The position numbers and the translations under genes were made by a program. From NCBI GenBank assembly GCA_030710605.1, contig CP092880.1, positions 1,654,862-1,718,861 on the forward strand: a stretch of DNA of 64,000 nt, in the 5' to 3' direction. The notes under the pieces are model-generated. The model saw nothing but the letters and a program-made list of their open reading frames with translations. It searched no databases and had not been told where the DNA came from. The stretch comes from Cordylochernes scorpioides. Taxonomy: Eukaryota; Arthropoda; Arachnida; Pseudoscorpiones; Chernetidae. Each line of letters opens with the position of its first letter. The first letter of the stretch is position 1. Below are positions 7,665-60,925 of the stretch, one piece after another.

Positions 7665-8587
7665 GCACACACTCCGATATGTTGGCTGAACATTGCCCAG
7701 CACACACTCCGATATGTTGGCTGAACATTGCCCTAGCACACACTCCGATATGTTGGCTGAACATTGCCCCATCACACACTCCGATATGTTGGCTGAACAT
7801 TGCCCCATCACACACTCCGATATGTTGGCTGAACATTTCCCCATCACACACTCCGATATGTTGGCTGAACATTGCCCCAGCACACACTCCGATATGTTGG
7901 CTGAACATTGCCCCAGCACACAGATATGTTGGCTTAATATTGCCCCAGCACACACTCCGATATGTTGGCTGAACATTGCCCCAGCACACACTCCGATATG
8001 TTGGCTGAACATTGCCCCAGCACACAGATATGTTGGCTGAATATTGCCCCAGCACACAGATATGTTGGCTGAACATTGCCCCAGCACACAGATATGTTGG
8101 CTGAATATTGCCCCAGCACACAGATATGTTGGCTGAATATTGCCCTAGCACACAGATATGTTGGCTGAACATTGCCCCAGCACACACTCCGATATGTTGG
8201 CTGAACATTGCCCCAGCACACAGATATGTTGGCTGAACATTGCCCCAGCACACCCACCGATATGTTGGCTGAACATTGCCCCAGCACACCCACCGATATG
8301 TTGGCTGAATATTGCCCCAGCACACACAGATATGTTGGCTGAACATTGCCCCAGCACACAGATATGTTGGCTGAATATTGCCCCAGCACACAGATATGTT
8401 GGCTGAATATTGCCCCAGCACACAGCTATGTTGGCTGAACATTGCCCCAGCACACCCACCGATATGTTGGCTGAACATTGTCCCAGCACACCCACCGATA
8501 TGTTGGCTGAATATTGCCCCAGCACACACAGATATGTTGGCTGAATATTGCCCCAGCACACACTCCGATACACGCTTGTTCGGCGGT

Positions 8588-8627
<40 letters not shown>

Positions 8628-8868
8628 GGCCCCTGCGCAAGGATGACACTCCGATATGTTGGCTGAATATTCGCCCCAGCACACAGATATGTTGGCTGAA
8701 TATTGCCCCAGCACACAGATATGTTGGCTGAATATTGCCCCAGCACACAGATATGTTGGCTGAATATTCGCCCCAGCACACAGATATGTTGGCTGAATAT
8801 TGCCCCAGCACACAGATATGTTGGCTGTATATTCGCCCCAACACACAGATATGTTAGCTGAACTTCGC
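7665..8868. repeat. Minisatellite, 32- and 36-bp unit variants
   Basis: Around 35 units of GATATGTTGGCTGAAYATTG followed by CCCCAGCACACA, with three junction variants: a 32-bp form and 36-bp forms ending CTCC or CACC. The CTCC form dominates the left end, the 32-bp form the right, which suggests local expansions. The units lack stops in several frames, so long spurious ORFs run on both strands; the largest (413 codons, minus strand) is purely repeat. A U6 snRNA fragment interrupts the array once. Confidence 0.97.
8574..8649 (+). pseudogene. U6 snRNA 5' fragment inserted in the minisatellite
   Basis: The segment matches the first about 80 nt of spliceosomal U6 snRNA: CATATACTAAAATTGGAACG, the ACAGAGA box, TTAGCATGGCCCCTGCGCAA and GGATGACAC are all present. 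The 5' stem-loop is diverged (GCTTGTTCGGCGGTAC). The 3' quarter, including the terminal T run, is missing, and satellite units rather than a snRNA promoter lie upstream, so it is a pseudogene. A 10-bp direct repeat CACTCCGATA flanks it (8561-8570 and 8647-8656), consistent with a target-site duplication. Confidence 0.93.
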
Positions 8869-14400: not shown

Positions 14401-17400
14401 AAAGGACAGTATTCGTGTCGTTATTTCTTCAAGGAAAATCATTGTAGAAATTTTGTTCTTGTGTCAAAAGACACGTGTAATAACAGAGAATGCCAGGTCA
14501 TCGTAAACGGAGGCAGTTCAAGCAGACAGACGCTTTTACGAGGGGCATGGTGATCGGACTGAAAAGGGCAGGTTGGTCCATACGTCAAATCGCAGCTGAT
14601 ACACACCTTGGTGCGTCCACGGTGCACCGACTGTGGAGAAGATGGTTGGAACAAGGAAATGTGGCAATTTATAGGAATGTCGGTGCAACCAGAGTGACGT
14701 CAGCACGTGTGGATCGGCGTATCCTTCAACAAGCAGTGGCGGCCCACAAGCCACTTGTACCGCCATCCTGCAACATGTGCAAGACACCCTAGATCATTCC
14801 ATCTCGACCAGAACCATTTCCCGTCGATTGGTTGCTAATGGCTTGCACTCATGCCGTCCGCTAAGAAGACTGCCATTGACCCCACCGAATAGGCGCCAAC
14901 GTTTGGAATGGTGCCGGGCTAGATCGACGTGGATGACGGAATGGCACAGGGTCGTGTTCTCAGATGAGTCGCGTTTCTGCTTGTCCAGTGATAGTCGCCG
15001 TGTACGCGTGTGGCGTCGACGTGGAGAAAGGTCCAATCCGGCAGCAATTGTGGAACGCCCCACCGTGCGACAACGTGGAATCATGGTTTGGGGCGCAATC
15101 GCGTATGATTCCAGGTCACCTTTACTTCGTATTCAGGGCACTATGACGGCCCAACGATACGTTGATGATGTGCTGCGACCGGTGACACTCCCCTACCTTC
15201 AGGGGGTACCCAATGCCCTTTATCAGCAGGATAACGCCCGACCGCACACTGCTCGCATTAGCCAACAAGCTCTGCAAGATGTACAGATGCTTCCCTGGCC
15301 ACCGTACTCTCCTGATCTCTCACCAATCGAGCACGTCTGGGACATCATTGGACGCCGTTTGCATGCCTTGCCACAGCCGCGTTCAGAAGACGAACTGTGG
15401 CAAATGGTTGAGAGGGAATGGAGAGCCATCCCTCAGGACGCCATCCGTACTCTGATTGACTCTCTACCTAGACGTGTTGCTGCGTGCATCGCCGTCCGCG
15501 GTGGTCCTACTTGCTACTAAGCCGACGCCGTTCTCGCTCTGTATTATGACTATCATTTTGAAATAAAGATCACTTATTGTTCGTCCCTGTCTCTCTCTGT
15601 CTGCCGAGTTTCATCACTTTCTGGCTACTATTTCTTGGTGTTCCATTTTCAATGTCACGCAGTGTATTAATAAACCAAAAGGAGCTGACACTGAGATAAC
15701 AAACACATCAGTGGAGGCAGATAGCCCAGGGCGGACTTACCGTTGATGACGGGCTGGAAGATGGCCAGGCCGTCGAAGGCTCCCACCGACCGCTCCAGCA
15801 CGGCGCCACCCCCGCTGGACAGCCCTCGTCATCCTCTGAACGGGATTGACACTTGGTGACAATAGGAAGGAAACAGTAAGATTTATTATAATAATGAATA
15901 GATTCAAAAAGGATGAGTTTCTTTATTTGAAAAATTAATTCGAGCTTTCGGGCGTAAGCTTCCCTTCTACAGGAATAATGGATACAATTTTAAGTAGCCA
16001 TGTATTTACAGTTATAAATATTTTCTTTAAATGGTTTCTCGCTTTGGTCTTGTATAGCGTGAGTGGATCACATGCCCGCGTGATTTAGTTTAAATCAAAG
16101 AAAAGCCTTGATAAAGAGAGGCGTGTTGCCCCTAGAAATACTAGCCGATTAACAATTTATATCCAGTATAAGCCATATATTTATCTATACATATATATAA
16201 GCTATTTTTTGCATATTTAGGATTATTTATGAAGTTTTATATTTTATTATTTAAGAAAAATTATTGCTTTGTAAATTAGTCAATTGGTTCATATTATTAT
16301 ATGCAAAATTGTTAAGTGGTGTGGTTAAGAGAAATCGGATAATTCTATTTTAGTTTTTGGACCAGCCTATCATATGTCTCTGGAATATCTATGTGTCTAT
16401 TTATGCTATTATATTTTGATGAAATCAGTGCTTCCAGTATTAATCTTTTGTATTTACTATTTATGTTTGTATAATGAATATTAGGGTTTGCTAGGTTGAA
16501 ATCGTGATCTGTGTTTCTGATATGTTGTACTATTAGAGATTTGGGGTCTTTGTTTTTAATATTTCTTCTATGTTCGTCTATTCTGTCTTTTATATGTCTA
16601 CCTGTTTCACCTACATATACATTATTACATTGGTTGCATGGTATGGAATATACGGCTTTGCTATTGTATAGTTTTGTCATAGGAATACTGTTTCTTGTAA
16701 TGGGGTTTCTTATTATGGTTGCTATACTCGGGTTGCTTTCATAATATGTTCTTATACCGTGTTTGCTTAAAATTCTGGCTATATTGGTACTACTATGGGA
16801 ATAGGGAAATATACATATTGATTTATAAACATGGTTATTTCTTATAAGAGAGGGATTATGGAAATGTCTTAATATAAAGTTTTTCGGATAACCAATAGAA
16901 GTGAGTTTATTGATCAAAAATTGGGTTTCTGTATCTTTTGAGAGTTGGGTGGAACAATGTGTATATATTCGTTTTGAGAGGGTTTTTACAGTGTTGATCT
17001 TGTGACTGAGGGGGCAATAAGAGGAAAAGTGTATATAATCTGGAGTGGAGTTTGGTTTATGGTATATTTCTGTTGTATATTGGTTTTGTGTTTTTAGTAT
17101 AAGTACATCTAGAAATGGTAAGGTCTTATTGTTTTCTGTTTCTATGGTAAAATCAATATCATTATGTATGGACTTTAGTTGGGTAAAAATGGTATCTATT
17201 TTGGTAGAGTTGGCTATACAAAAGATGTCGTCTATGTATCTCTGCCAGATGATGATATCTGTGGGAAAAAGGTTAGTTATTGTTTTATCTATTTTTCTCA
17301 TTACTATTTCTGCCAAAGGTGAAGAGAGGGGACTTCCCATGGGGGAGCCCTTGGTTTGTCTATAAAAATTACTATTGAAGGAGAATATGTTGTATTGTAG

Positions 17401-20400
17401 GCTGAGCTTAACTAATGAAATAATTTTAGAAGAAGTATCTGGAGGAATATTGTTTAATGCTAAAAATTATTGTTCCCTATCTTTTTATGAAATTATTTTA
17501 TTTTTTCCTTTATATAAAATCAACTCTACACAGAAAGGTTACCGATCAATAAATCACAGAATCTTAATGGGAATAGAGAGAAAATACATAGTTGTCATTG
17601 ATCTATTGGACTCACGTCTCTCCGGCCGAAGTTATTGGACTCACGTCTCTCCGGCCGAAGTTATTGGACTCACGTCTCTCCGGCCGAAGTTATTGGACTC
17701 ACGTCTCTCCGGCCGAAGTTATTGGACTCACGTCTCTCCGGCCGAAGTTATTGGACTCACGTCTCTCCGGCCGAAGTTATTGGACTCACGTCTCTCCGGC
17801 CGAAGTTATTGGACTCACGTCTCTCCGGCCGAAGTTATTGGACTCACGTCTCTCCGGCCGAAGTTATTGGACTCACGTCTCTCCGGCCGAAGTTATTGGA
17901 CTCACGTCTCTCCGGCCGAAGTTATTGGACTCACGTCTCTCCGGCCGAAGAAGGACGATACAGCTGAAGAAGCCAGCTAATATATGTAGCATCTAGTGTG
18001 AGGACTACTCTCTTATTTGAAGTGCATCAAAACAGCGTAATTTGTTCAACAATCCTGTCCAGAAGGTAAAGGTGTCTATGAGAGAACGTGCACCACTGGA
18101 AAATATCTTCATTCCGAAGAATTAGAATTTATAACGCGCTTCTATGTTCAAATCTTGAGGATATATAAGGTAAACTTCCCTCAGAAATGGTTCTAACTGC
18201 TGTTCCAAAGCAGCATTCTACTACAGCACCATATGTCCAACCAGCCCCCATTCCTATAGACAGACAGCGCAGTCTATACTACAGCACCATATGTCCAACC
18301 AGCCACCATTCCTATAGGCAGACAGCGCAGTCTATACTACAGCACCATATGTCCAACCAGCCACCATTCCTATAGACAGACAGCGCAGTCTATACTACAG
18401 CACCATATGTCCAACCAGCCACCATTCCTATAGACAGACAGCGCAGTCTATACTACAACACCATATGTCCAACCAGCCACTATTCCTATAGACAGACAGC
18501 GCAGTCTATACTACAGCGCCATATGTCCAACCAGCCACCATTCCTATAGACAGACAGCGCAGTCTATACTACAGCACCATATGTCCAACCAGCCACCATT
18601 CCTATAGACAGACAGCGCAGTCTATACTACAGCACCATATGTCCAACCAGCCACCATTCCTATAGACAGACAGCGCAGTCTATACTACAGCGCCATATGT
18701 CCAACCAGCCACCATTCCTATAGACAGACAGCGCAGTCTATACTACAGCACCATATGTCCAACCAGCCACCATTCCTATAGACAGACAGCGCAGTCTATA
18801 CTACAGCGCCATATGTCCAACCAGCCACCATTCCTATAGACAGACAGCGCAGTCTATACTACAGCGCCATATGTCCAACCAGCCACCATTCCTATAGACA
18901 GACAGCGCAGTCTATACTACAGCACCATATGTCCAACCAGCCACCATTCCTATAGACAGACAGCGCAGTCTATACTACAGCGCCATATGTCCAACCAGCC
19001 ACCATTCCTATAGACAGACAGCGCAGTCTATACTACAGCACCATATGTCCAACCAGCCACCATTCCTATAGACAGACATCACAGTCTATACTACAGCACC
19101 ATATGTCCAACCAGCCACCATTCCTATAGACAGACATCACAGTCTATACTACAGCACTATACTATGCTATTGTGTTTGTTCCAGTTTCCTTTCCTTTCGC
19201 ATCCTCTTTCGGCCACATCGGTCCCTCCACCGTCGGTAGACAGCACCACACAACTTATCTCTCCAGCGGAACGGTCTAATCTCTCTCGGTCCAATATTTG
19301 GGTTGGCTATCGTGCACCTGTCCTCCGTGTCACTAAACCGTGTCATTCTACGGCGCCATTTATTTCTTCAGTGTCATCTTTCCTAATTATCCCAATTCAA
19401 TAGAATTGGAAGGTAAAAATAGAAAGATAAATATGAGGGTTCCTATAATAAACATTTTATTTTTGGAGACAAAAACTGGTTTGATTCTCAAATTGGGCAA
19501 TAATTGATATCGTGTAGCTAATAATGGAGTATGGAAACAATAAAGTTTTCGTTTTTAAAGACCGAGGTTAGGAAAACAATTGGAAACTTGTATTTTCTCA
19601 AATTGAGCCCGGGAGGAACAAGGGCCCGAGCACGACAAGTTACGTGGCAAGTTACGAGAAGTCCTCGGCCTTGGCACCCGCTATCACTCGACCTAGAACT
19701 GCTTCCTGCGGCCTCATAATGCGCTGGAGAGGAGGAAACCTTTTTTGAGTGGAGGCAGAATCTCCTATAGTCCAGCGTCCATTTTCAGGCTGGAATAATT
19801 CACAGAGGAGCAGTGTCCCCAGACAAACAACCCCCGCCGAAGGAACTTTGGATTCGGTGGCTGGCCCAAGTTCCTAGGGACCTCGAGGGGGCCTCGCCCC
19901 CCAATTAATTATAAGCGAAATTAATTTTTTGCAAGTTTTGTAAATTTCTCTTTTAAGTATATTTGTACTTCACATAAGCACATCTACAGTAGCACCTCTC
20001 TATATCGAACCCCGGCTGGACCTTTGGTTCGCTTTAGCCGTTTCAATTTGATATTAATATTGTGGGAAACAACATTCGGTTCGTAATAAGGGTAATTTTT
20101 ATTCAAAGTTGTTTATAACCCTATTGTTGCTAATGAAATGGAATCGGGAAGTATTTTATGTTCGTTTTATGAAAAGATTCGCGATATCACCGGATCATTT
20201 CAGCAAGGTATTATTATGTGTAATTAGCTATTTCATATATTCTTGTCTCTCTCCAAATATTCGCATCGTGAAGTACCTGGTGATGACGACCGAGGCCACG
20301 ACGGGGATCCAGCCGGTCTTGAGCACTTGCCGGCTGAAGTTGTTCTTGAGCGCCAGCAGGAGTAGCAGCGGCACCAGCAACACGCTGATCCCCACCACGG

Positions 20401-26434: not shown

Positions 26435-27892
26435 AATCCTGTGTGGGCCGCTGAGTGTTGCCTAGTGGCTGACCTGTGTGGGTCGCTGAGCGTTACCTAG
26501 TGGCTGACCTGTGTAGGCCGCTGAGTGTTGCCTAGTGGCTGACCTGTGTAGGCCGCTGAGCGTTACCTAGTGGCTGACCTGTGTAGGCCGCTGAGTGTTG
26601 CCTAGTGGCTGACCTGTGTAGGCCGCTGAGCGTTACCTAGTGGCTGACCTGTGTGGGTCGCTGAGCGTTACCTAGTGGCTGACCTGTGTAGGCCGCTGAG
26701 TGTTGCCTAGTGGCTGACCTGTGTGGGATGCTGAGTGTTACCTAGTGGCTGACCTGTGTAGGCCGCTGAGTGTTGCCTAGTGGCTGACCTGTGTAGGCCG
26801 CTGAGCGTTACCTAGTGGCTGACCTGTGTGGGTCGCTGAGCGTTACCTAGTGGCTGACCTGTGTAGGCCGCTGAGTGTTACCTAGTGGCTGACCTGTGTG
26901 GGATGCTGAGTGTTACCTAGTGGCTGACCTGTGTGGGATGCTGAGTGTTACCTAGTGGCTGACCTGTGTGGGTCGCTAGTGTTACCTAGTGGCTGATCTG
27001 TGTAAGCCGCTGAGTGTTACTTAGTGACTGACCTGTGTGGGCCGCTGAGTGTTACCTAGTGACTGACCTGTGTGGGCCGCTGAGTGTTACCTAGTGACTG
27101 ACCTGTGTGGGCCGCTGAGTGTTACCTAGTGACTGACCTGTGTGGACCGCTGAGTGTTACCTAGTGACTGACCTGTGTGGGATGCTGAGTTTTACCTAGT
27201 GGCTGACCTGTGTGGGATGCTGAGTTTTACCTAGTGGCTGACCTTTGTGGGCCGCTGAGTGTTACCTAGTGGCTGACCTGTGTGGGATGCTGAGTGTTAC
27301 CTAGTGGCTGACCTGTGTAAGCCGCTGAGTGTTACCTAGTGGCTGACCTGTGTGGGCCGCTGAGTGTTACCTAGTGGCTGACCTGTGTGGGATGCTGAGT
27401 GTTACCTAGTGGCTGACCTGTGTGGGATGCTGAGTGTTACCTAGTGGCTGACCTGTGTGGGATGCTGAGTGTTACCTAGTGGCTGACCTGTGTGGGATGC
27501 TGAGTGTTACCTAGTGGCTGACCTGTGTGGGATGCTGAGTGTTACCTAGTGGCTGACCTGTGTGGGATGCTGAGTGTTACCTAGTGGCTGACCTGTGTGG
27601 GATGCTGAGTGTTACCTAGTGGCTGACCTGTGTGGGATGCTGAGTGTTACCTAGTGGCTGACCTGTGTGGGATGCTGAGTGTTACCTAGTGGCTGACCTG
27701 TGTGGGCCGCTGAGTGTTACCTAGTGGCTGACCTGTGTGGGATGCTGAGTGTTACCTAGTGGCTGACCTGTGTGGGATGCTGAGTGTTACCTAGTGGCTG
27801 ACCTGTGTGGGATGCTGAGTTTTACCTAGTGGCTGACCTTTGTGGGCCGCTGAGTGTTACCTAGTGGCTGACCTGTGTGGGATGCTGAGTGA
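26435..27892. repeat. 35-bp minisatellite, about 41 units, upstream of SLC41
   Basis: Unit GTGTGGGCCGCTGAGTGTTA then CCTAGTGGCTGACCT. Variants fall into blocks: GTAGGCCGC with GAGCGTTACC at the left, GTGACTGACC in the middle, GTGGGATGC at the right. It starts about 440 bp upstream of the SLC41 ATG, so it lies in the promoter region or first intron. Confidence 0.97.
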
Positions 27893-31727: not shown

Positions 31728-32309
31728 ATGGCCGACGACACTAAGACTATGCCGTGGATCCACCACTCGGATTCGGAAGAAATTTCCCTGACACAGAATG
31801 AGATCGTCTCTCTGCTTTCCGACAAGTTCGCGGAAGTGAAGCAGCTTGTAGGAGAAGTCAAGAACCGGTTTCTGAAGCAGCACATGGCCAAGCTGAGTGG
31901 CTCGTTGGGAATTGGCGACATTCGCGAGCGATGGCTGCCGCCCATCCCGCCCCTGCTGCCCAACCAGAAGCCCAACATGAGCAAGATCATCAGCCACTGC
32001 TACCAGATTCTCCAGTACTACTGCGTGGCGCTCGAGCAGATGGCTTCCGACCAGGAGAACGACTCGGGCAGGTTCGCCGAAGACTTCAGTAAGATCAAGA
32101 TGGAGCTCCTAGACCTGGTGGGGCTGACGTACCGGGGCATCCGGCTCTTCAGTGTTCCGCCGCTCGTGGACGTGGACCGGTCGGCCATGCCGCAGGACTC
32201 GAGGGACGTCAAGAACAAGGCCAGGAACATGCGGGACTACCTCGTCCTCCGGGACCTCTACCTCACCCTGGTGTCCGTGGCCGCCCAGCTGGAGCTCCTG
32301 CAGATCTGA
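31728..32309 (+). CDS. Hypothetical 193-residue all-helical protein, single exon
   Basis: ATG in good context (AAGATGG), TGA stop at 32307-32309, AATAAA at 32619. Coding character is strong: GC-rich third positions in an AT-rich neighbourhood and a clean ORF. I do not recognise the family. No signal peptide or membrane helix. Four long amphipathic helices can be read: about residues 24-55 (EIVSLLSDKFAEVKQLVGEV), 83-108 (MSKIISHCYQILQYYCVALE), 115-142 (FAEDFSKIKMELLDLVGLTY) and 163-193 (NMRDYLVLRDLYLTLVSVAA). A Pro-rich A-B loop (LPPIPPLLPN) and a long C-D loop separate them. That layout is like a four-helix bundle, possibly a leaderless helical cytokine, but this is inference from helix pattern only. 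Confidence 0.75.
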   Translation: MADDTKTMPWIHHSDSEEISLTQNEIVSLLSDKFAEVKQLVGEVKNRFLKQHMAKLSGSLGIGDIRERWLPPIPPLLPNQKPNMSKIISHCYQILQYYCVALEQMASDQENDSGRFAEDFSKIKMELLDLVGLTYRGIRLFSVPPLVDVDRSAMPQDSRDVKNKARNMRDYLVLRDLYLTLVSVAAQLELLQI

Positions 32310-32618
32310 GGCTGCCTTCGCTCCCCACACATTCGATCCAATTGTCTTGGCCTGTTATAGCTTGGGAAACCTCACCACATTCGTGAATCGATATTCTTAG
32401 AAATGTACACTTTAAACTTTCAAATGAGAATACAAAATTTCTTCTTCCGTTAAGATTATGATCACATTCCTGACACCTGAGTGACTGAGGCCTTCGTCAC
32501 TTCTGGAATATCAATTAGCAAGGCGTTCCCGAACATGAACTAAGCCCTGTATGTATCCGGGGATTAGAGAGTAAATACATGTGGAATGAGCCATGTACTT
32601 GCGGTATATTTAAATATC

Positions 32619-32624
32619 AATAAA
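32619..32624 (+). terminator. Polyadenylation signal of the 193-residue gene
   Basis: AATAAA about 310 bp after the stop codon at 32309, the first such signal downstream. Confidence 0.55.
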
Positions 32625-32639
32625 GCCACTAGATGAGGG

Positions 32640-33433
32640 GAGAACATTGCGCTGTAGCAACTTTGGGAACAGAACAATCCTCTACACAACAGGACAACGA
32701 ACGAAAGCAGTAAACAGCTTAGAAGTTAATTGTTTTATCCCGAGCCAAGAGTAGATCAATTTGTTGAAGAACCAACAAGAGAGCCACTGTAGGCCACGCC
32801 GCTCACTGCAGAAAGCAGTTTTGTGAGAGACTCCTTAGTTTCACAATTCTTTTAAAACGAAACACTCGGGATTCCTAACGATATCTCCGAGACGTGTGCA
32901 AGAAGCTAGTGGTGTTTGGAAATCGTATTTTTACATTGTGACACTGAAAACAAATGTCATTATTTTTTATAAGAAAATATCGCTAGGTTCATATTGAAGA
33001 CTTGAATAGGATAATGGAATAGGGAAATATTTGAAGTCTGTGGGTTTATTTCGTGTACGGATCGTACTACCACTCTCTGAAATAAGGAAAACGTGGGTTC
33101 CAACTTCCAACAAAGGGTTCGGTCGTGGAGTTGAGCAGACTTTGGAGTTCAGCCTCGAGCAAAGTTGGTAGTTGGCTTTGGGATAAAATGTTCTTTTATA
33201 CCTAAGATTCTAGGTGAAAATATATTTCAGGAAAAGTCTTAGGAGCCGAGAGGCACAAGTAGACAGACCTCCGACATGGGTAAAACACTGGAGAGCAATC
33301 TGAACCTTCTCTACTTGATCCTACAGTAAGTAGATGTCACGTAGTTGGGATAACCAGGCAATCACAGATAGCCTGAGTGTACCCGGCTGATCTAATCTGT
33401 GAATGTATAATTGTATAAGAGAACAGAAAGGCA
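32640..33433. other. No gene seen
   Basis: Unremarkable sequence between the helical-protein gene and the AT-rich retroelement. Confidence 0.4.
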
Positions 33434-33452
33434 ATGAATGTTGTTAGAAGTA

Positions 33453-33510
<58 letters not shown>

Positions 33511-35380
33511 TTTAACATTATTTAAACTAAATAATAATAAATTTATCAAACTCATAGAATATATTAAAATTCATAATCTGACTAACAGATTAATAGATAT
33601 CACACACGACATCTTTAAATACAGAAAAATTAAACAAAATACTAATAACATTAATATTATCATTAAATTTAATAACAATTTATTTAATCATATTAAATTT
33701 AATGATATTTTTAATAACCAAATCATCAATAATCTTTTCCCTATAAAAAATTTAAATTTTAAAACAATCTGGAGATACAATAAAAATATAGGTAATTTAG
33801 TTTGCAATTATAACCAATTTATTAATAATTTGGCAAATTTTAAAAAAATTAAATGTAATTGCAACAACTATATTGATAAATATAAGTACTCAGGTCATAT
33901 ATTAACTAGCAACTTTTCTTTTTTAAATCCAGAATATCAAGAAATTTTAAATAAAGGGTATAAATATATACCTCAAATTAAACACAATTATAATAATACA
34001 ATTAAATCTATATTAAAAGATATAGATATTTTCATAAATAAAACTAGTATAAAATACAGTATTCCAGAATTTACTTTTCTGGAATGGAAACATAATATTA
34101 AAAAGGAAATTTTAAATTATTATAATAATACACTTAAATACACAAAACCCAATTCAGACATTCCTTCTTTCAAAGAAAATATAATTAATTTACAGAAGGA
34201 CTATATTATCACTCCTATAGATAAATGTCCCAATAATTTATCTTTAATTTGTAAAAATCTATACCACGATATACTAAAAAAGGAAATTGATAATAATCAT
34301 AAATACACTTTTGCTAGAACTACAGGCACAAAAATCAAAAAAGACATCAAAAATGTTGAAAATTCACTAAAAATTTATAATAACCACAAAAATCCAAACA
34401 TACCAAAGTTCTATATAATTCCTAAACTACACAAAAAACCTATTTCTTTCAGAACAATCACATCTGGTATAAATTCAGTCATAAAAAATATTGATATACA
34501 ATTAGCCTCAACACTACAATTTATTATAAATAAATTAACTAATAAATATAATTATAAATTTATCGACTCAAATAAAAAAATCATTAATTATTTAATGAAC
34601 AATTGGACAAACATTGAAACAGTACACACATTTGACTTTGAGGACCTATATTCTAAAATAAATTTAAGAGATCTAAATAATAAAATAACCAATTTATTTA
34701 ATGAATTAATTAATGACAAAACTTTCTACATTAAAATTATTCATAACAGATATAAAACATTTAAATTAGATCTTAAAACAGCAAAAACTCTACTGGAAAC
34801 ATTTTTAAATTTTAACTATATAGAATTTAAAAATAAAATATATATTCAATCAGAAGGCGTTCCCATGGGTACTTCTTCTAGTCCGTTACTAGCAAATTTA
34901 ATATTGTTCTGGTACGAAAGAGAATACTTTCTACAAAATAATATTAATTGGCAAATATTCCGATATGTAGATGACATAATAATATTTAATAATCCACTGT
35001 TTAAAAAATTAATACCTGAAATATATCCTAAATACTTGAAACTTAAGAACAATGAAAAAATTTATAGAAACAAAAAAGTTAACTTTTTAGACTTGAATAT
35101 AGACCTTACAAATAGTGCTGTTAGAGTTTATAATAAAAAGAGTAATTATAATTTCAATATTATAAAATACTGTAATATGAATTCTAATATATCATTAAAT
35201 TGCTGTAAAGGTATATATTATGGTCAGTTTCTAAGATTTTATAGAATAAATAATATATTAGATAATTTCATAGAAGATGTTAAAAATTTAAACATGGAAT
35301 TTATTAAAAACAAATTTAGTATCAAACAAGTAAAATATTTCAACAGTATATCAATTATAAAATATTTAAAAAATAAATAA
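33434..35380 (+). CDS. Penelope-type reverse transcriptase ORF, very AT-rich, no endonuclease visible
   Basis: 648 codons from the first Met; the true start is unclear because the first about 25 codons are an (AT)n/T tract (IYIYIY) and no other Met follows for some 360 codons. A Cys-x-Cys then GHILTSNFSFLNPEYQEILNKG block (from about residue 139) precedes the RT. RT landmarks: FYIIPKLHKKPISFRTITSG (about 329-348), SEGVPMGTSSSPLLANL (474-490), FRYVDDIIIF with the catalytic Asp pair (about 34957-34986), and NFLDLNIDL. These match Penelope-like RT better than LINE or LTR types. The ORF ends soon after the thumb region, with no GIY-YIG module. Codon use is dominated by AAT/AAA/ATT, unlike the other genes here. 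An undamaged ORF this long in such AT-rich DNA argues for recent arrival or constraint. Confidence 0.85.
33461..33512. repeat. (AT)n microsatellite followed by a T run
   Basis: About 20 AT units then eleven T; it fuses in frame with the RT ORF. Confidence 0.95.
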
Positions 35381-36700
35381 ATGGAAATATCCATTTATGA
35401 AATCAACTTTCTATAATTTCTCTTAATATTAACTAATACAAATTTATAATCTTTAACAGTTAATTAAACTTTTATTAAATAACTGATTAAAAGATTTTTT
35501 CACAAGATTTTTAAAGTGTTAAAGTATATAGTTCATTTTTGTTTAATCTCCAATTTCTGGGGAGGAAAATGGAAGTTAAATAAAGATGAATTTGCACAAT
35601 TAATAGCTTTATTAAACTCTTATAATTTGCCTTTTTAAAGGAATATTAAAAGATGATTAAGTGTTAAATCAGTTATTTTGATATAACTATCTGTAAAGAT
35701 TATAAAACTTAGCTTTCTTCCTTTAACTATTTTTCCTATCTTCTTTAATTTTCTTGTTGTTCAAAAAAATTCTGAAGAAATGGTCTAAATTTGAAATGTG
35801 GGGGGACATTCCCCTCCCGCGACATGTGCCAGCCAGAAATAGATATACACAATGGAGGACGCAGCGGTCAAGGTAGATTTACAGTTTGAATTTGTTAACA
35901 CTTGTATCTGTTATATGTTCATTTAAATATTTCACTGAAACAACTTAATATTAACACATAAAATACGGTTTAAAAGAGATCTATGACATAATAAAGGAGG
36001 GGTTGAAATGTCGCTGGAATTTTATCTGATGATCCCCGTTCCAGCAGATCTCTTTTTCCAATTTATTTCAATTTAAAGTTTTTTGTGTATGTCTGGTCTA
36101 CCATTAGGGTTTCAAAACATAATATCCAAACTTATAACAAATGTTAATTCATACTATAGATATATTACTAAATACAACTATTTATAATCATATTATAAAA
36201 TAAAAAAACCTTTAAAAATCTTTTAAAAAAAAAAAAAAAAAAGGATAAAATATAAAATCATAAAAAAATATATATATATATACTAACAATCTTATCTACC
36301 TTCTTTATAAAACTCTTTTTTTTTTTTTTTCCTTATTATTAGTTTGATTAAAAGTGCATGGTTCTGTCTTTCTCTCTTTTTTCTAACTATTATATATATT
36401 ATCTCTTCGATTATTCTATATATAGGATTAGAGTATGTCTGAATGACGTGTAAAAGCCGATGTAATAGACGTTACTTTGTTAATTTTTTTTATTGTTATT
36501 AATTATAAATATATAATTAACTTGAGGATGTAATAGAAGCAAAGGATTTTTTTTTTTCTCTCTCTATCTACAAATTAATAACATTTTACAAATTTTATAA
36601 TTTGTATTTAAATGATCATAATAGTGAAGATAATTTTAATACAAAACTGGACTATAAAATTAAATAACTATTTATTATTATATATATATATATATATATA
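35381..36700. other. AT-rich flank of the RT ORF
   Basis: Same extreme base composition as the ORF up to about 36700, with A and T homopolymers and an (AT)n tract at about 36680-36702. No second ORF, no clear terminal repeat. The composition change near 33430 and 36700 probably marks the limits of the inserted DNA. Confidence 0.45.
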
Positions 36701-36704
36701 TATG

Positions 36705-36800
36705 TTTGTTGTTGGGAGGGTTAACCACTGATGAGCCAAGCCCTCCAATATTTTTACATCGCAGTAAGGACAGAAGAAGTTTGATTTATTTGTTATAAAA
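36705..36800 (+). repeat. Partial copy of the CAGATGGCGC-end MITE family
   Basis: GGGAGGGTTAACCACTGATG, AGCCAAGCCCTCC and ATCGCAGTAAGGACAG match the family middle and right arm. Confidence 0.65.
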
Positions 36801-36899
36801 AAAAAACATTCGCGTGGTAATGTCTTCATTCTTTAAATATTTGTTTACAGTATGAATATATTCTGAAAATAGAGCAATCCCTAATTAAATGTTTAGATA

Positions 36900-38218
36900 A
36901 TAAAAATTGACTATTTACAAATTACTTTCAAGTTATGTCCATTTTATGGAGGTCTTCAAATTCACACGGCGTGAGAGTCGGAGTAAACAATAGAGAGGGA
37001 CGTGTTGTTGTCAGGCAGGTGAGGGCCCCGGGGGAACAGCGGGGGCTGACCACCGTACGTTCCACGGCCCAGGAGCTCGGACCGGTTGTGAAACAATTTT
37101 CGCGGATTAACAAAAACTTAACGAGGTATTAAAGAACTGCTACATAATTCCATTGTGACATTTCGTGCTGCCAACCTTCAAATTCAATATTATGGATTTT
37201 AAACTCACGGACAAAATTAAAGGAAGTGGAAAGTCTTTGTTGTCACCTGTCGTCTATTTTTTTTTTGAAGGAGACAGAGATAATGTTGTTCACACTTGGT
37301 TATCTCGTGTGTCTTCAGTAGAGGTCATCGTGTATCAAATATCTTTCAGAGTTAGTGTCACGATATACATGATAAAAGGTACAACTCCCTTAAGTTTTGT
37401 CCATGAGTGTAAATTTTAAAATTAAGGCATTTAAACGTGTAAGGCTTATAGAAGAACAATTAATATTGTTCATTTCTCATATAAATGAATAAATGGAAGT
37501 CATGAACGATTGTTGGAATGATGTAGGGAGCTGGCGTGTGAGGAACACCGGAATAATCAGGGACCACAGGGCTACGACGACCGTAGAAGAGATTCAGGAA
37601 AACGACCTAGGGCAGATGAGAGAGGGCTGGGCAGCCAAGAATGAAGGCGGACCAGGGGACAATTCTATCGAGGAGCCACCGGGAGAGATTATAGTCAGAA
37701 TGCTGGAGGACTGCAGGGGACCATATCTGCCAGGATCACAGCACTGATAAGGAGTCAAAAGAGATTTCAATTGTATAAGTATCGCATGTGATTTAATGTT
37801 ATTATTTTGATGTTGAAGAATACGTAAACAGTCCAATTATTAAACTTTATAGAGAAAAATTTGTAACCTTTCTTAAACATAAAGTTATTTATTTCGAATA
37901 AGATTGTTTAACGCGGAGACAGTCTCAGAGGACCTGACTAAAGGTTGATCAGTACCAGCGGGTGTGCGAGTCCTCCATAGTGCCAATGGTTCGTGAGCTA
38001 GGAACAGCCTATTTCATCCGTATTCCGTGCCTTTCTGAAATCTATAGGCATTTTAATTGGAAATTATGCTTTTGGGACTTGAAATATAAGGTTACTTATA
38101 ATGGTACTTCGCTATAACTCTGGTATATTCAATGGAATGGGATTGGGTCCGCTATACCCCCGGGTCGTTTAGAGAAGCTCCACTGGATTTAGAGAATATT
38201 GAGGTATATCTAAATATA
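36900..38218. other. No recognisable gene
   Basis: A GC-rich island (36955-37090) contains an ORF open on both strands and a CAG|GTGAGG donor-like site at about 37018, but no family is recognised. Confidence 0.3.
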
Positions 38219-58580: not shown

Positions 58581-59960
58581 CCGTTCAGTTAATTAGAATC
58601 TAAACTGTCCCACTCTTGGAGCAGACAATCCTCCACCAAACTTAGCCGTTGAGCACAAATATTAACGCATCTGGGAGAAATTGAAACATATTTTGGGGAA
58701 AGCTAAAAAGAGGAAGACACTAGGGCTTAAAAAAATCTACTAGAGAAAAATTTCCAACGGTGTGCAACACTGAAAAAGACTAATTTTGTGATCCATTGAT
58801 CTCACAGCAGCACAGCCTGTCACGGCTGATGTCAGCAACTATGGCTGGTAGAAGAACAGCCCGCGACCTGACCCAGAGAACAGCTCCAATTACTAGCGAT
58901 GGCTCGTTACCGTGGTCCCCCGCGGCTGCGAGTTCATAAAATGGCAGAGTCCTCTGTGCGGCCGTGTCCTTGTTACGTCGTTGGCATGGTTGTCTTCTCG
59001 TGATACTTAACATGATTAATGCGCCAGTACAATGTGCATCTTTGGATAGCAGTTTGGAGTGTGATCTAGTTCCCAATAAGTTTGTCTAAGTACCTGCTCC
59101 ATCTTGGTAGTTGTCTTGAAGCAGCTACCAGGCAACGGTGTGTTCGGCTAGTGACACGGGAGAACGTACACCAATAAGACCCATAGATCTATCCGCAGGC
59201 GGTGACAAGCCCCATGCATCGAGGCAATTTATAAACTTGGGCACAGATCGCAAGAAGTTTAATGGCTTTGATTATTCTTGTTTAGCCCTGCGATATCTTT
59301 GTAAATTTAAGTAAATGTGCTCTATAGATAAGCTCTCGCTCATTGCGGAGAAAATGCCGATAGATGGCGCTATCTCTTGTAAACTAAAATAATTTAATTT
59401 TCTAAATCAACAAAAATAATAGGAGGGAATTGACAGATAAATTGTCTTTCTAATTTTCTAACGCAGTGGGTCGCTGTCTATGATTACCAATGATTTTCAT
59501 GAGACACTCGGATAATTCTTCCAAAATTCCCAGAGCAGGCTAAGAATTTTATCCTTCTGCGTGTTTTCCAATTCTGCAGGACGAAGATTAATTTATAAAT
59601 TGTAACGTCATTCAAATGTGACTTCTTGTAGCGCCACTTTGGCTTCATCAAAGTGCCGGGCACATGGCTGGCTCCGTAGCTGTTTGAATCTTTGGTGAAT
59701 TCTCCAGATAATTTTACAGCAAGTTCTTGCCTCACGTGGGGAGTTACAATACTCGAGGAAATAACATGAATGTTGGGTCATAAAATGGAAATAAAAATGC
59801 CGAAATTAAATATCGTTGGAAGGAAGCAGCGATGGAAGAACTGTTTGTCATTGAGTAAGGTTAATAATGTGTATTATAATAATTCTTTGAGAGTTTCCTA
59901 TCTAGAGTGTGAATGGGATAAATTCTGTTTGATGTCTTCTTGTATAGGAAACCATTCCAG
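58581..59960. other. No gene seen
   Basis: Short ORFs only. ATAGATGGCGCTATC near 59361 resembles the MITE end motif. Confidence 0.4.
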
Positions 59961-59961
59961 A

Positions 59962-60925
59962 CAGATGTACATGTTAGAAAGATGTAAGACAGATGTATAT
60001 GTTTGAAAGATGTAAGACAGATGTACATGTTAGAAAGATGTAAGACAGATGTACATGTTAGAAAGATGTAAGACAGATGTACATGTTAGAAAGATGTAAG
60101 ACAGATGTATATGTTTGAAAGATGTACATATAAGTTGATCTACATGTTGGGAAGATGTAAGACAGATGTACATGTTAGAAAGATGTAAGACAGATGTACA
60201 TGTTAGAAAGATGTAAGACAGATGTACATGTTAGAAAGATGTAAGACAGATGTACATGTTAGAAAGATGTAAGACAGATGTATATGTTTGAAAGATGTAC
60301 ATATAAGTTGATCTACATGTTGGGAAGATGTAAGACAGATGTACATGTTGGGAATATGTAAGACAGATGTACATGTTAGAAAGATGTAAGACAGATGTAC
60401 AAATAAGACAGATGTACATATAAGACAGATGTACATGTTGGAAATATGTAAGACAGATGTGCATATAAGAAAGATGTAAGACAGATGTACATGTTAGAAA
60501 GATGTAAGACAGATGTACATGTTAGAAAGATGTAAGACAGATGTACATGTTAGAAAGATGTAAGACAGATGTATATGTTTGAAAGATGTACATATAAGTT
60601 GATCTACATGTTGGGAAGATGTAAGACAGATGTACATGTTGGGAATATGTAAGACAGATGTACATGTTAGAAAGATGTAAGACAGATGTACATGTTAGAA
60701 AGATGTAAGACAGATGTACATGTTAGAAAGATGTAAGACAGATGTATATGTTTGAAAGATGTACATATAAGTTGATCTACATGTTAGAAAGATGTAAGAC
60801 AGATCTACATGTTGGAAATATGTAAGACAGATGTGCATATAAGAAAGATGTAAGACAGATGTACACATAAGACAGATGTACACATAAGACAGATTTACAT
60901 ATAAGACAGATGTACATGTTAGAGA
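59962..60925. repeat. 28-bp minisatellite with block structure
   Basis: Unit AGATGTAAGACAGATGTACA then TGTTAGAA, about 34 copies, with a recurrent variant block (GTATATGTTTGAAAGATGTA, CATATAAGTTGATCTACATG, TTGGGAAGATG) at 60108, 60280, 60570 and 60744, so a larger period of roughly 170-290 bp is superimposed. Confidence 0.95.

Follow-up and report, generated by a model that had tools for sequence, protein, structure and literature searches.

A 5′-truncated copy of a very probably Naiad-type Penelope-like retrotransposon in the genome of Cordylochernes scorpioides

The reverse transcriptase (RT) gene described here is, in all likelihood, the remainder of a young, 5′-truncated copy of a high-copy retrotransposon, a Penelope-like element (PLE) of the Naiad type. 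It lies in a stretch of 64 kb, referred to as the window (C18:1654862-1718861), and was compared with the whole assembly of 2.62 Gb in 24 contigs. An earlier note, made from the window alone, had described an undamaged PLE without an endonuclease, unusual as an internal copy in an arthropod. Complete copies in the same genome have an N-terminal GIY-YIG endonuclease; one of these (locus L017) has a frame of 824 codons, of which the window copy lacks the first 188, the remainder being almost unchanged, so that 'undamaged' does not apply. It is a truncated but otherwise ordinary family member of an already known kind of PLE, and a false case of an internal, endonuclease-less arthropod PLE is thereby removed. 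Such false cases can originate from the permuted domain order itself: 5′ truncation deletes the endonuclease and a clean RT ORF remains.

The window has an open frame of 648 codons at 33434-35380 (+), which on sequence evidence encodes a PLE-type RT, as the earlier note had recognized. A stop-free run of 621 codons would be expected by chance with a probability of about 10^-27.6 at the composition of this ORF, and the other five frames of the same stretch contain 26-116 stops. NCBIfam TIGR04416 matched the ORF (E 3.2e-9, 36 bits, far under the model's cut-off of 300), and Pfam RVT_1 matched the C-terminal part of the near-identical L017 protein over its cut-off (E 2.4e-8). The catalytic YVDD is codon 511 (34964). 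No match was obtained for the whole ORF in Pfam and PHROGs; the clear Pfam matches (GIY-YIG and RVT_1) came from scanning pieces of the protein rather than the whole. A PDB sequence search with the ORF returned weak matches only, including a group II intron RT (E 0.16) and telomerase (E 0.42-0.49).

Roughly the first 27 codons of this ORF, its ATG included, derive from host flanking DNA, the (AT)21 tract and a run of T, which happen to be in frame. The earlier note had correctly described the start of the ORF in an (AT)n tract; it put the stretch without a further Met at about 360 codons, whereas the next in-frame Met is codon 388. The absence of GIY-YIG sequence in or after the ORF was borne out. 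Two matches to a loose GIY-YIG regular expression occur in 31.5-38.5 kb, at 36371 (+) and 35055 (-); we regard both as fortuitous, given that a tblastn search with the endonuclease of the family itself was negative over that interval.

Alignment of the window copy to L017 extends over 33506-36686 with 99.1% identity (Table 1). The copy begins at codon 189 of the complete frame, so 5′ truncation has cost it the endonuclease and some of the linker. Over 610 codons, there were two synonymous and no amino-acid differences from L017. The final residues are NK in the window copy and KNKWKYPFMKSTFYNFS in L017. An A-tract just ahead of the stop codon varies among copies (window 35348-35390; L008-L036), and at least four different C-terminal ends were seen: YLKNK in the window, YLKKK in the 809-codon copies, YLKKINGNIHL in the 815-codon copies and YLKKNKWKYPFMKSTFYNFS in most others. 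The (AT)21 on the left of the element and the (TA)12.5 on its right are the two longest AT tracts of the window. Within the 3′ region, positions 36271-36686 have a second match in L017, at the 3′ end of the tandem unit that precedes.

Table 1. Features of the truncated element and its flanks in the window (names of RT motifs A and B′ are those we take to apply)
Feature	Position	Strand
(AT)21 microsatellite, left part of insertion target; (Tyr-Ile)n start of the ORF when read in frame	33461-33502	
T-run and 5′ junction; homology to complete copies starts at ~33506-33515	33503-33514	+
C-terminal part of the element ORF (from codon 189 of the L017 frame): CxC linker block and RT	33515-35380	+
CxC motif (Cys-Asn-Cys), followed by a GHI block at 33893	33854-33862	+
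PKLHKKP block of RT	34421-34441	+
RT motif A (FDFEDLY)	34631-34651	+
RT motif B′ (GVPMGT)	34856-34873	+
RT catalytic YVDD	34964-34975	+
Element 3′ untranslated region and pseudo-LTR sequence	35381-36686	+
(TA)12.5 microsatellite, right part of insertion target; 3′ boundary of the element at ~36686	36679-36703	

Complete copies were found by searching the assembly with the window protein. The best 68 scored of 38,460 loose candidates were the window and 67 other places with 97-99% protein identity, and by our count 54 of the 68 lie in open frames of at least 800 codons, compared with 653 for the window. In 30 loci (L007-L036), 24 of the 32 RT-bearing frames include the segment IYKLTCQICQLSYIG (IY..YIG) in the same frame; these frames have 809-835 codons. 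The other eight RT frames belong to six loci, the window among them, whose break points all differ: U1525 (L007), U1512 (L008), U1490 (L009), U1468 (L010), U1147 (L021) and U1388 (L035). In those other than the window, the element is mostly joined at the break to an inverted piece of itself. The six look like separate events and, their break points being different, give no sign of a common sublineage without the endonuclease.

The N-terminal segment of the complete copies was matched by a known endonuclease family. In the first 190 residues of L017, Pfam GIY-YIG (PF01541) was detected over its cut-off at residues 34-114 (E 1.5e-6), and locus L037 has the same 190 residues with the same score. 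The whole 824-residue L017 protein had no Pfam family match, which we attribute to its composition. By tblastn, the N-terminal residues of L017 also matched the GIY-YIG of a second PLE in the window (16402-16770; E 0.002, 29%), the sole window match of the family endonuclease below E 0.4. When the assembly was searched with the same 190 residues, 149 of the best 150 scored of 27,319 candidates were 100% identical, and 112 of these 150 occur in frames of at least 800 codons (our count). All 150 are on C1-C4 because only the best candidates were scored, and for the same reason (few candidates scored) the copy number of the family is a lower bound only.

The domain order was read directly from the L017 protein: GIY-YIG at residues 34-114, CxC (CNC) at 302, motif A at 561, motif B′ at 636 and YVDD at 672. 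This order places the endonuclease upstream of the RT, and not downstream as the earlier note had expected. The frame ends after the RT, and the family endonuclease has no match downstream of it in the window.

Complete copies lack an in-frame ATG ahead of the endonuclease. The first Met of the 824-codon frame of L017 is codon 75, past the IY..YIG residues, and none precedes the GIY-YIG domain (L017:3831-3925(-), with equivalents in other complete copies). A nearby ATG is out of frame and reaches a stop after three codons. The GIY-YIG region was aligned in full 30 times across 34 loci; 28 of these alignments stay open with no ATG, and two were not in frame. Translation of the endonuclease could begin in a spliced leader exon, at a non-AUG codon or by frameshifting after the out-of-frame ATG, any of which would suffice. 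With no fewer than 150 copies whose endonuclease is identical or almost so, and with readable (AT)n junctions, the genome offers material for studies of both the translation start and microsatellite choice.

With regard to classification, Naiad elements were reportedly defined by Craig et al. 2021 by an N-terminal GIY-YIG, a CxC linker and an RT with a fingers insertion between motifs A and B′, and are said to have pseudo-LTRs, a bias for insertion at microsatellites and no canonical hammerhead. The permuted order of the complete copies is what we take to be the Naiad order, GIY-YIG–CxC linker–RT, in which the endonuclease belongs upstream. Further likenesses are an N-terminal GIY-YIG in the same ORF as the RT (24 of 30 loci; absent from the truncated window copy), the CxC linker (CNC at residue 302 of 824; window 33854), insertions at microsatellites (19 of 22 outer 3′ ends), tandem and inverted copies and high copy number. 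In addition, no hammerhead was found in window 32-38 kb or L017. Motifs A and B′ are separated by 75 residues in L017 and L007, compared with 60 in three canonical PLE loci (L042, L044 and L046), a span that fits a fingers insertion but falls short of proof. By domain order and this description of features, the family very probably represents a Naiad-type PLE. Traits that may set it apart from other Naiads are its strong AT-richness (21% GC over the unit), the lack of an in-frame ATG before the endonuclease and the AT runs at 19 of 22 outer 3′ ends. A separate report lists PLE/Naiad as a class (PMC10941475).

Canonical PLEs with a C-terminal endonuclease (the Penelope/Poseidon/Neptune kind) are represented in the window by the second PLE at 16345-17340(-), which confirmed and repositioned a GIY-YIG-bearing element reported there by the earlier note. 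It is a 5′-truncated copy of a second high-copy family, with a C-terminal GIY-YIG; the best 121 scored of 60,313 candidates belong to that family. Both families share a PLE RT, GIY-YIG, 5′-truncated copies and the same direction of strand bias. However, the GIY-YIG of the first family is N-terminal rather than C-terminal to the RT, and 75 rather than 60 residues separate motifs A and B′.

The base composition that had drawn attention to this ORF was confirmed as extreme. GC content of the ORF is 19.2% and almost flat by codon position (21/18/18%), compared with 41% in the window outside 33434-37000. It was proposed that this difference reflected transfer or a distinct lineage. The second part holds in that this lineage and that of the other window PLE are distinct, but transfer is not needed: the AT-rich composition belongs to a many-copy family on chromosome-scale contigs, and therefore neither contamination nor transfer of a single block is necessary. 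GC content is 21.4% for the complete frame, 26% for its endonuclease part and 21.4% for the whole 4,282-bp unit. The contrast between 19-21% GC in the block and 41% outside speaks for horizontal transfer or a contaminant, yet the assembly has many tandem, inverted and single copies, the first 30 loci occur on 15 of the 24 contigs, and the other PLE family of the window shows the same sense-strand bias. We thus consider a transferred or contaminant block improbable; older acquisition of the whole family by transfer may have occurred. GC skew is -0.22 and -0.33 in the two window PLEs, compared with -0.08 to +0.11 in eight other ORFs. Their A-over-T skew (+0.16 and +0.25) is less distinctive, since several other ORFs have +0.14 to +0.17. 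AT-richness is described as common in transposable elements (PMC9099904).

Still less probable, to the point of being very hard to maintain, is a genuine endonuclease-deficient PLE of the Athena/Coprina type inserted internally. Like these elements, the window copy has an RT without a C-terminal endonuclease; its ORF stops after the RT with no further domain, and no endonuclease sequence of this copy is present within 31.5-38.5 kb. However, near-identical complete copies have an N-terminal GIY-YIG, unlike Athena/Coprina, and the window copy starts inside the protein of those copies. Location also differs. Endonuclease-deficient PLEs are, according to one report, largely restricted to chromosome ends (PMC3846280), and the same report records endonuclease-bearing and endonuclease-deficient PLEs in one arthropod, the kuruma shrimp. 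Copies of Athena/Coprina at chromosome ends are capped by telomeric repeats, whereas none of the 30 loci of the present family is closer to a contig end than 1.64 Mb (median distance 30 Mb; contig ends are not equated with telomeres), which does not favor the telomere proximity raised by the earlier note. The copy number and location that it had singled out for checking are those given above. In the window, TTAGG, TTAGGG, TTAGGC and TTTAGGG are nowhere present as perfect tandem pairs. TTAGG arrays gave 748 overlapping matches in the assembly and, among the matches listed, all are at C1:4.117 Mb.

A standalone RT gene co-opted by the host is scarcely credible: the long open frame without amino-acid changes relative to L017 over 610 codons could be read that way, but a split microsatellite and the element's own 3′ region flank the window copy, which itself belongs to a large set of near-identical copies. 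Of 27 variants among copies, 25 are synonymous, but since protein score decided which loci were included, this excess says nothing about selection.

The preferred reading, a truncated Naiad-type copy, is also supported by the behavior of the family. Copies are single, in tandem with a period of 4,282 bp, or inverted head-to-head, and these arrangements were observed directly. We chose by eye 22 outer 3′ ends from the 30 loci L007-L036, leaving out L012, L021, L023, L025, L030, L031, L033 and L036, which continue into a neighboring unit. The criterion was an AT run of at least 10 bp in a segment of no more than 90 bp whose first position is 10 bp inside the element; 19 of these ends had one, compared with 0.5% of 20,000 random window positions outside the element. 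The three exceptions were L014, with no run, and L010 and L018, with 9-bp runs. Most outer 3′ ends in L007-L036 are at ~U4697 or ~U4823, about 126 bp apart, and both finish in TATA. For Penelope-type PLEs, another study describes two reverse-transcription start sites together with an optional 'tail' (PMC11167929).

These observations would fit the following course of insertion. The endonuclease would cut inside an (AT)n microsatellite, and the RT would copy the element RNA from near its 3′ end with the cut DNA as a primer, the two preferred end sites both lying in TATA. In the window copy, copying would have halted early, leaving a cDNA that ended within the linker and did not extend to the endonuclease part. 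It is conceivable, although we regard it as rather doubtful, that the target is chosen via complementarity, with TATA at two fixed places of the RNA 3′ region (~126 nt apart) pairing with the cut (AT)n and priming the copying. If so, the template would share target choice with the endonuclease.

Rfam gave no match at E 1 in window 32000-38000, hammerhead ribozymes included. In L017, there was likewise no hammerhead; just two mir-1277 matches were returned, and we dismissed these as chance since they were below the gathering score and on the (AT)n flank.

Relatives were also sought outside this genome. A search of IMG/VR with the window protein gave eight pattern stretches and no relative, and tblastn in phages and plasmids found nothing. 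A two-row alignment search in other collections returned 600 stretches, none of which was confirmed; of the motif pattern searches there, one had no match and another gave four contigs and no relative. In prokaryote genomes, a motif pattern was found in two records, L001 and L002. The former was rejected as unrelated. The latter includes a decayed fragment of an animal-type PLE RT (L002:3243-3374(-); 39% over 44 residues, E 4e-7), too short to classify; its contig, assigned to a Bathymodiolus (mussel) symbiont assembly, is probably contamination from the host mussel.

Several repeats were observed elsewhere in the window. A minisatellite array with a period of ~32-36 bp at 7668-8863 overlaps a full-length U6 snRNA match (8572-8672). 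Long homogeneous minisatellites occur at 17604-17950, 18219-19161, 26438-27891 and 59959-60880, one with 12 copies and a 100% match, and two of these long arrays sit just upstream of the truncated second PLE.
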